NCBI RefSeq assembly: GCF_964204645.1
Contig: NC_134031.1
Location: 1 to 64,000, forward strand
Reading direction: 5' to 3'
Length of the DNA stretch: 64,000 nucleotides
Source: Tubulanus polymorphus
Taxonomy: Eukaryota; Nemertea; Palaeonemertea; Tubulaniformes; Tubulanidae
Part shown: positions 11,097-62,678 of the stretch, one piece after another
How the letters are laid out: the number at the start of each line of letters is the position of its first letter
Numbering within the stretch: position 1 is the first letter of the stretch
Notes under the pieces: model-generated
Databases searched by the model: none
Told to the model about the DNA's origin: nothing
The model's input: only the letters and a program-made list of their open reading frames with translations
Position numbers and translations under genes: made by a program

Positions 11097-11280
11097 ACAA
11101 GGCCAACACTAGGGTTACTGCGTTTATTCACCAGGCCAACATTAGGGTTTCTGCGTTTATTCACCAGGCCTACGCTATGGTTTCTACGTTTATTAAACAG
11201 GCCAAAACTAGGGTTTCTGCGTTTATTAAACAGGCCAACACTAGGGTTTCTGCTTTTATTAAACAGGCCAACACTCGTCA
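11097..11280. repeat. 33-bp minisatellite, U1
   Basis: About 5.5 copies of a 33-bp unit containing GGCCAACACTAGGGTTTCTG and CGTTTATTAAACA or CGTTTATTCACCA. The period is a multiple of three, so several frames stay open and give 11-residue repeats; I do not take these as proteins. The same unit occurs in the opposite orientation at 59822-60275. Confidence 0.9.
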
Positions 11281-16176: not shown

Positions 16177-16320
16177 TTGGTCACTAAACCTGAGCTATGA
16201 ACCAAACTTTGACTCTTTGGTCACTAAACCTGAGCCATGAACCAAACTTTGACTCTTTGGTCACCAAACCTGGGCTATGAACCAAACTTTGACGCTTAGG
16301 TCACTAAACAAAGACCATGA
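16177..16320. repeat. 40-bp minisatellite, U1
   Basis: Three and a half copies of a 40-bp unit start at TCACTAAACC 16181, 16221 and 16261, with a degraded copy at 16301. Each includes GAACCAAACTTTGAC. U2 and U3 have the same number; U4 has one fewer. Confidence 0.9.
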
Positions 16321-25140: not shown

Positions 25141-26214
25141 TCCATTCGTCTGTGATATTGATGATGATGATCATCATAGGTTTCAGAAACAGATAATATT
25201 TAAACTGTTCGTTTTTTCATTACTTTCTTGTTTATATTTCATGTTGAACTCTGGATGCAAAACCTAAACTGTGGATAGAAAAACCCCGTGAATAAACGAA
25301 CTGCAGATTGGAGCGAACAATCTAATTTGTAAGTTTGAATTTTAGATTTGATATTTCTGCAGTTATTTCTAAGGAAAGAAAACAATCTTAGATTTGTCTA
25401 TTATAGGTATCACTTCAACATGTTCAACGGGAATTTTGATTCAGCACAGGAAAACAAGAATCACTCTTAGATTCAGCACAGGACAACAAGGAATCAGTGT
25501 TTCACAATCAGACTTTTTTGGTTTTGCGCCGGACATCGGGAATCATTCTTGGATTCAGCACAGGACAACAAGGAATCAGTGTTTTACTACCAGACTTTTT
25601 TTTGATTTAGCACAGAACATCGGGAATCACTCTTGGATTCAGCATGACATCAGGAATCACTATAGCCTATGTGGAAATTCAAGATAAGTAACATTAATCT
25701 TTATTTATCGGGTGTTGAATTGATTTTAAGGGACCAATTTTATATTGTTTGTTATAAACCATGTTTTGAAATGAAATCTCAGAAACCTGTTGCATTTATT
25801 CAATCATTTCAAATTTCTTTTGGTGAATATTTGGCTATAATCAGTTCATGGTTGGGATTGTTATTTCTGTAAGCGGGTTTACAGGTTTTCTAAATTGTGA
25901 TCAACTCAAATGTTATTTCTAATCAATATGAAACTGGTTCCTGATGTCAATAATACAACTGTTATCAATCATGTTCCTTCGTAATAATCAGATCATGTGT
26001 ATCTTGAGAGTTAGAATTTCTATAGATTAAACTGCTGTACTTATTTCATACTGATTGTACAGTTACAGATACATGTAACATTGTGTACAGATACAGAGTA
26101 CAGATCACTGCATTACTTCATCCTGTGATTGAACAGTGATTTAATGTTCTCTCATCTTCATTAGATTCCCATCCGTCTAACTAAAACATCAGAACATTTC
26201 AACTCATCTAACCA

Positions 26215-59821: not shown

Positions 59822-60275
59822 AATAAACGTAGTTACTCTGTGTTGGCCTGGTGAATAAACGTAATAACCCTCGTGTTGGCCTGGTGAATAAACGTAATAA
59901 CCCTCGTGTTGGCCTGGTGAATAAACGTAATAACCCTCGTGTTGGCCTGGTGAATAAACGTAATAACCCTCGTGTTGGCCTGGTGAATAAACGTAATAAC
60001 CCTCGTGTTGGCCTGGTGAATAAACGTAATAACCCTCGTGTTGGCCTGGTGAATAAACGTAATAACCCTCGTGTTGGCCTGGTGAATAAACGCAGTAACC
60101 CTAGTGTTGGCCTAGTGAATAAACGCAGTAACCCTAGTGTTGGCCTGGTGAATAAACGCAGTAACCCTAGTGTTGGCCTGTGAATAAACGCACAAACCCT
60201 AGTGTTGGCCTGTGAATAAACGCACAAAAACCCTAGTGTTGGCCTGTGAATAAACGTAGTTACCCTAATGTAGTG
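59822..60275. repeat. 33-bp minisatellite, 14 copies, opposite orientation
   Basis: Copies start at AATAAACG 59822, 59854, then every 33 bp to 60151, then 60183, 60215 and 60249. The unit is GTGTTGGCCTGGTGAATAAA plus CGTAATAACCCTC, the reverse complement of the array minisatellite. The first variant (TCGTG) changes to CTAGTG from about 60090. Open frames of 110-135 codons on both strands come from the 3n period. Confidence 0.93.
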
Positions 60276-60511: not shown

Positions 60512-62678
60512 ATGATCTGTAGCAAAGATGAGGAAGAAATGAATGAATCTGAAACCCTACGATTAAACTGCAATGAAGAAGAGCCTGATGATGAGAAAAC
60601 TGGTGCAGCAGGTTAGTCAACTCGAAGGAGAGTGAGGAGAGACTCAGAGAGGGATTCCATGTTTACTAATTCAGTTAGGATACTCAACAATCCAATGACT
60701 AAACTCATACAGTTATTTTGTCTGTTTTATCATTGCAGTAAATAAGACAGCAGCAGCAGCAGCCCCGGACGGAGGTTGGGGCTGGTTCTGTGTTTTAGGC
60801 TGCGCGTTCATGCATGCGTTTGTAGTTGGTAATGATCGATGTTTTGGTCTGATTTATTTAAAACTGGAGGAAAGATTTGGACAGAGTTCAGCGATGACGG
60901 CTTGGGTGGGAGGAGTAGCTATATCACTGAGAATGGGTCTAGGTTAGTATCGATTTCAACTTGAGCTTGAGAGGACTGTGTCTGGTTCAGTCAGCTGTGG
61001 TCTCGAGTCAAGTTTACTTCCCCCTCCCCTCACACACAGCCCGTTTTAATTAATCCTGGATTTATTATTATTATTGCAGGTCCTGTAACGAGTATTCTAT
61101 CGAACAGGTTTAACTATAGATTAGTGGTGATGTTTGGAAGTTGTTTACTGTTTTTAGGAGTTACTCTCAGTTCTCTCGTTCCGAGTCTATCCTATCTATA
61201 TTTAACCTGGGGAGTTATTTTAGGTAAAGTATGAGGTTTGTGATTAAGTTAATTTTATCAGGTGCTGGTGTTGCTATGGTTTATACTCCTAGTTTAATGT
61301 TGTTATTGTTGTATATTTCAGGTACTGGTGTTGCTATGGTTTATACTCCTAGTTTAATGTTGTTATTGTTGTATATTTCAGGTGCTGGTGTTGCTATGGT
61401 TTATACTCCTAGTTTAATGTTGTTATTGTTGTATATTTCAGGTACTGGTGGGGCTATGGTTTATACTCATAGTTTAATGTTGTTATTGTTGTATATTTCA
61501 GGTGCTGGTGTTGCTATGGTTTATACTCCTAGTTTAATGTTGTTATTGTTGTATATTTCAGGTACTGGTGTTGCTATGGTTTATACTCCTAGTTTAATGT
61601 TGTTATTGTTGTATATTTCAGGTGCTGGTGTTGCTATGGTTTATACTCCTAGTTTAATGTTGTTATTGTTGTATATTTCAGGTACTGGTGTTGCTATGGT
61701 TTATACTCCTAGTTTAATGTTGTTATTGTTGTATATTTCAGGTACTGGTGGTGCTATGGTTTATACTCCTAGTTTTATAGTATTAGGAGATTATTTTAAC
61801 GATCGTCGAGCCGTCGCTAATGGATTATCCTCGGCCGGTTCGGGACTCGGTTCATTCGTTTTACCTCAAATATGTCGTCTATTGTTAGAATATTATAATT
61901 ACCGCGGTACTTTGTTAATAATGGGAGCCGTTATTTTTAACGTGATAAATTGCGGTGCTTTGTATCGACCTTTAAAACGATCGAAGGTGAAGGTTGTATG
62001 TATTGATTACGGGTTATTAAGGAATATAGAGTTTGTTCTATATGCTGTGTTTATAGGTATATGTACGATGTCGTATATGTCGATTCCTACATTTATTCCT
62101 GCTTTAGCCGTTCAGAAATCAATTGATTGGACACAAACCGCGTATTTCCTGTCCGCTTACGGAGTTACTAATATGATCGGTCGTTTGGTATCCGGATTTA
62201 TTTTTGATTGTAGTAAAATTCGTCCGATTCGTCGGTATATTTATAATATTACTCCGTTTTTATTATTTATAACAATGATAATGTTTCCGTTAGCGACCGG
62301 GTTTACCGGGTTTATCTTATGCTCGTTGTGTTACGGTTTAAGTAATGGTTTATTTGTTTCTCAGATCGCTAGTATTCTTGCGGATATCGTCGGGGCCGAC
62401 CGGTTCTCCGGTTCTATCGGTATCGTAACGTTCTTCCGAGGGTTCGGAGTCATGGTCGCTCCAGTTGTCGGAGGTAAGTTATTCAAATTGCTCCGACGAC
62501 GAATTTGTGCGAAATACTGGTTTTAATTGTTGTGTATTCTATATTTTCAGGACATATAAAAGATGTAACCGGTAGTTACGATTATCTGTTTTATATGAAC
62601 GGAGGTTTAGCCGTTTTATCCGGGATTATATTCGTAATCGCGAATATCTATCATTATCGCCATCAATCATCGTCCTAA
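60512..62678 (+). CDS. Monocarboxylate transporter-like protein (SLC16/MCT family), 5 exons
   Basis: A 12-span major facilitator predicted to carry monocarboxylates or similar small acids across the plasma membrane. My splice model is 60512-60611, 60739-60942, 61080-61223, 61742-62473 and 62551-62678. All introns are phase 1 and GT-AG, giving 435 aa. The acidic cytosolic N-terminus (1-37) and an Ala run precede PDGGWGWF (43-50), the MCT signature of the first span. GTGGAMVYTPSFIVLGDYFN (150-169) followed by DRR and ANGLSSAGSGLG is the classic span 4-5 block. The central loop is short (RPLKRSKVKV). MIGRLVSGFIFD matches span 8. The start is the first ATG after an in-frame TAA at 60443. The substrate and exact SLC16 member cannot be assigned. 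Oddity: the 3' end of intron 3 and the start of exon 4 are repeated eight extra times (61262-61741). Confidence 0.9.
61262..61741 (+). repeat. 60-bp intron/exon-boundary repeat (8 copies + genuine exon start)
   Basis: Each copy joins ~34 bp resembling the start of exon 4 (GTACTGGTGTTGCTATGGTT plus TATACTCCTAGTTT) to ~26 bp of intron tail ending TATTTCAG. Acceptors therefore recur before 61262, 61322, 61382, 61442, 61502, 61562, 61622, 61682 and 61742. There are no stops, and 60 is a multiple of three, so any acceptor joins exon 3 in frame. Each extra copy would add 20 residues, GTGVAMVYTPSLMLLLLYIS. Copies alternate GTGCTGG and GTACTGG, suggesting growth by 120-bp dimers. The first acceptor would leave an intron of only 38 bp and is unlikely to be used. 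Confidence 0.95.

Follow-up and report, generated by a model that had tools for sequence, protein, structure and literature searches.

The transporter gene and its repeated intron 3 end

The window, a stretch of 64,000 nucleotides, occurs in single copy, at the beginning of contig 7. On its forward strand we modelled a gene with five exons and GT-AG introns, coding for a protein of 435 residues with zero internal stops. Exon 1, from the ATG, lies at 60512..60611, exon 2 at 60739..60942, exon 3 at 61080..61223 (sequence and gene model; ending ...TTTTAG in phase 1), exon 4 proper at 61742..62473 and exon 5, including the stop codon, at 62551..62678. Exon 4 starts GTGGAMVYTPSFIVLGDYF... and codes for transporter span 4 onwards, as placed by the paralogue acceptors and the MCT2 alignment. 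The predicted protein matched MCT2 (E 2.2e-49) over the stretches 42-229 and 236-430, which correspond to both MFS halves in the MCT structure comparison, and it also matched PF07690. Judged by this similarity, the host gene is an SLC16 or monocarboxylate transporter-like gene.

The genome contains about 40 or more related exons. Of 28 family loci that were compared, counting the window gene, 24 carry an AG acceptor at the same codon and in the same phase at the start of exon 4. Since the paralogues have an intron at the same position, intron 3 is old and the AG at 61741 is the ancestral acceptor. This authentic boundary is retained in the window gene: exon 3 reads on into exon 4 at 61742 in phase 1, the position of the acceptor is conserved, and the MCT2 alignment continues across the exon 4 start.

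Intron 3 contains a tandem array. An unrepeated start of 38 bp (61224..61261), with the donor GT at 61224 (GTAAAG), reaches a first, weaker AG (TTATCAG) and is followed by eight complete 60-bp units (61262..61741), each consisting of 34 bp of the exon 4 start, ending ..CCTAGTTT, and 26 bp of intron end, AATGTTGTTATTGTTGTATATTTCAG. The AGs thus end at 61261 + 60n, the last at 61741. TRF reported the array at 61258-61775 with a period of 60, 8.6 copies, 96% matches and a score of 980. These values bear out the location and period claimed in an earlier note on this DNA, and the unit table likewise bears out its description of eight extra copies of the intron 3 end plus the exon 4 start. Chance cannot account for an array this regular.

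Only four positions vary among the eight complete units, and every difference between units is an amino-acid change. Unit position 3 alternates strictly along the array (G, A, G, A), in line with the earlier proposal of growth by 120-bp dimers, but unit 4, which alone carries the changes GTT to GGG and CCT to CAT, copies no other unit, so that dimers can describe part of the history only. The near identity of the units suggests recent turnover, as seen in one assembled haplotype.

Near-identical tandem units that are known here from the assembly alone might also represent an assembly artefact or a collapsed copy number. We consider this very improbable: contigs of 20-30 Mb suggest long reads, which are able to span 0.5 kb, the variants among the units are ordered, and similar arrays with different units were found in six genes (see below).

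Other repeats were observed in the window. A segment of about 11,169 bp is present in some three to four tandem copies between 11000 and 55000, as indicated by repeat features at 25434/36603/47772 and at 16177/27667/38836/50012. A 33-bp minisatellite of 13.5 copies lies at 59822-60266, just upstream of the SLC16-like gene, and its unit also occurs reversed at 11100, 23568, 34737 and 45906.

Nine acceptors in one reading frame

All nine AGs give open phase-1 joins of exon 3 into exon 4, as the earlier note had stated when it claimed that no copy contains a stop and that phase is kept throughout. Its claim that all copies end alike holds for the eight repeated acceptors, in which the 26-bp upstream sequence is identical. 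It fails for the first acceptor at 61261 (TTATCAG), which is not a copy of TATATTTCAG, scores 8.5 compared with 10.6 for the copies in a small local acceptor matrix, and would on use leave a 38-bp intron. Because the upstream sequence of the eight is identical, nothing in the local signals by itself singles out the last acceptor.

One reading of this arrangement is an isoform ladder, in which splicing deliberately draws on the upstream acceptors and adds between one and eight hydrophobic modules of 20 residues each close to span 4. The open, in-phase joins and the near-equal local scores agree with it, as does the finding that boundary repeats sometimes alter splicing in human genes (PMC2812944). 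On the other hand, such inserts would fall inside a conserved transporter span, the frame is lost in half of the sister arrays described below, and the units are otherwise identical, with differences that all change amino acids and give no sign of selection on a protein. We regard the ladder as improbable. A slim chance is likewise all that we give to a substantial and variable use of upstream acceptors, through which copy-number polymorphism of the array would determine a series of transporter isoforms that carry 20-residue insertions close to span 4.

The hydrophobic, stop-free and in-frame character of the units carries little weight, since intron tails of paralogues are similar and one third of unit lengths are in frame by chance. 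Since a T in the middle of a codon specifies a hydrophobic residue, the T-rich end of an intron will read as hydrophobic, and the core of the module is no signal. Of 23 paralogous intron tails read in this same frame, 17 stay open across nine codons, and they finish in residues such as FYIS, YIYFS and LLYFL; their hydropathy has a mean of 0.99 and a maximum of 2.52, the value for the window gene being 2.59. The core is also equalled by MIVFVLYFS, read from a 48-bp array in another gene. With differences between units that are few and all amino-acid changing, nothing suggests selection on the inserted peptide.

The units might alternatively be new introns, each excised singly or recursively. 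Every unit boundary reads AG|GT (unit starts GTACTGG or GTGCTGG), and tandem duplication of AGGT is reportedly a documented route of intron gain. The donor at the unit start fits the consensus only at GT and +3, however, and five sister arrays have no GT at the start of their units, which indicates that GT is simply how exon 4 begins. Intron 3 itself is old, its position being common to the paralogues, in contrast to an intron gained by AGGT duplication. This explanation has a very small probability in our judgement.

Boundary arrays in other genes

At least five unrelated genes elsewhere in the genome share this boundary anatomy, with the last copy running into a coding exon. The largest array, in an axonemal dynein heavy chain gene (C6:22656512-22658544; L002 1319-3351), has a 58-bp unit and 35 near-identical acceptors. 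The others are 36 bp x18 in CWC27 (identified by a PDB match), 47 bp x13 in NALCN (L068 710-1322, reverse strand), 52 bp x5 in a gene that we take to be FRY (weak PF14228 match, just below the curated cut-off) and 48 bp x7 in a gene for a short membrane protein with no family assignment. Six boundary arrays in all is a lower bound, as 17 candidate arrays, part of the list, were read; 13 of these were not boundary arrays of an intron 3' end and four were further clear ones. The function of the five sister genes is assumed from their open, conserved exons.

In three of these genes every upstream acceptor leads to a stop (dynein 34/34, NALCN 12/12, FRY 4/4), and splicing must therefore mostly take the last acceptor. 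The unit lengths are 36, 47, 48, 52, 58 and 60 bp; three of the six are divisible by three, which is not far from the chance value of 1/3, and unit length is indifferent to frame. The five sister units start with TGG, GCT, TAA, TAG and TAA.

Several of these genes showed further features. Another intron of apparently the same dynein gene, 3 kb upstream, holds a second array of 63 bp x6 (L075). Each NALCN unit has only 11 nt of intron ahead of its AG, and the branch point of downstream copies would therefore have to fall within exon-derived sequence. Use of the first FRY acceptor (L069 511-552) would make a 42-nt intron, a case suggesting that this genome has very short introns.

In a genome search the only other DNA similar to the window array was the dynein array of 58 bp x35. 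This 65% match on C6 was rejected as a relative: the dynein array is independent and has only the acceptor consensus in common with that of the window. A dispersed introner was also ruled out, as the 16-mer TTGTTGTATATTTCAG, present in both arrays, was otherwise matched at only six single sites and not at many genomic places.

Triples of TATTTCAG at array spacing were found 130/181 times compared with 6/5 for the reversed control, and triples of AGGTAAGT 14/9 times compared with 50/64, a test of little power because AGGTAAGT is uncommon as a donor form in this genome (8,000 sites versus 15,297 for its control; TATTTCAG has 35,737 versus 10,471). Tandem arrays bearing TATTTCAG thus lie far above the reversed control and those bearing AGGTAAGT do not; a 3' bias is possible, and owing to the low power of the donor test no 3'-over-5' bias is claimed. 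In 111 kb of gene loci not picked for repeats, 11 minisatellite arrays made up 3.9% of the sequence. At such a coverage, overlap with some of the many acceptors of the genome is to be expected.

Origin, splicing and known counterparts

With a probability of about 0.87, we interpret the array as a minisatellite that by coincidence lies across the intron 3/exon 4 boundary, an arrangement termed a mirage. Of the two options offered in the earlier note, the neutral minisatellite is favoured by the five other genes, the frame-blind units and the stops, and the isoform ladder lacks support, which falls short of disproof. The first tandem duplication would have joined exon position 34 (..CCTAGTTT) to the intron site AATGTTG.. 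at a short T-rich homology, the intron 3 start reading ..AAGTTAATTTTATCAG. A short homology at this place is what would be expected for slippage or end-joining. Later enlargement may have proceeded by unequal exchange or slippage, partly in 120-bp steps, and what is now the first segment may descend, in shortened form, from the original intron end.

We infer that the last acceptor, the sole one with the whole of exon 4 behind it, makes nearly all of the mRNA and that the upstream copies are removed as intron. The intron parts being identical, this preference would have to come from the full downstream exon or from distance, a reasoning that builds on work with duplicated splice sites. Should a minor share of transcripts use an upstream copy, the products would be aberrant proteins carrying 20 extra residues per unit within span 4, rather than members of a designed system of isoforms. 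As all nine joins are open, stops cannot purge such products in the SLC16-like gene.

The kind is already known from lancelets, and recurrence in a protostome genome is what the present case adds. In lancelets, mirages repeat intron-exon boundaries in tandem; they occur in the Adh3, globin, troponin C and PGBD5 genes, with units of 10-72 bp in Adh3 and of 150-160 bp in globins, the latter with 6 and 3 units in two haplotypes; by RT-PCR, splicing and mRNA were reported to be undisturbed (PMC3087553, PMC3902484). As in those genes, the unit here combines an intron end with an exon start; AG splice signals recur in many copies, and the genuine boundary is kept at the end of the array. Units measure 36-60 bp here versus 10-160 bp in lancelets, the host is a protostome, only 3' boundaries have been seen so far, and splicing, shown there by RT-PCR, is predicted here from genome sequence. 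In human genes of segmental duplications, internal tandem repeats at exon-intron boundaries can change splicing. There too minisatellite units cover the splice boundary, whereas the 27 intron modifications described, mostly intron gain, were checked for transcript support (PMC2812944).

The assignment to protostomes follows from clustered miR-2 genes, miR-2 being a protostome family. Seven such genes exceeded the Rfam cut-off, with mature sequences TATCACAGCCAGCTTTGATGAG and similar; the hairpins form clusters on C3 (L084) and at C2:21716367-21717689, with one further hairpin on C4. A search of the same assembly for COX1 gave no match. No earlier report of boundary mirages in a protostome was found in the literature searched, the coverage of which was incomplete.

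Boundary-spanning minisatellites, so far a lancelet curiosity, thus recur in conserved genes of a protostome, with up to 35 identical acceptors. Since the acceptor copies differ only in their distance from the donor and in the sequence downstream, these arrays offer a natural test of the way in which the spliceosome chooses among acceptors with the same local sequence.
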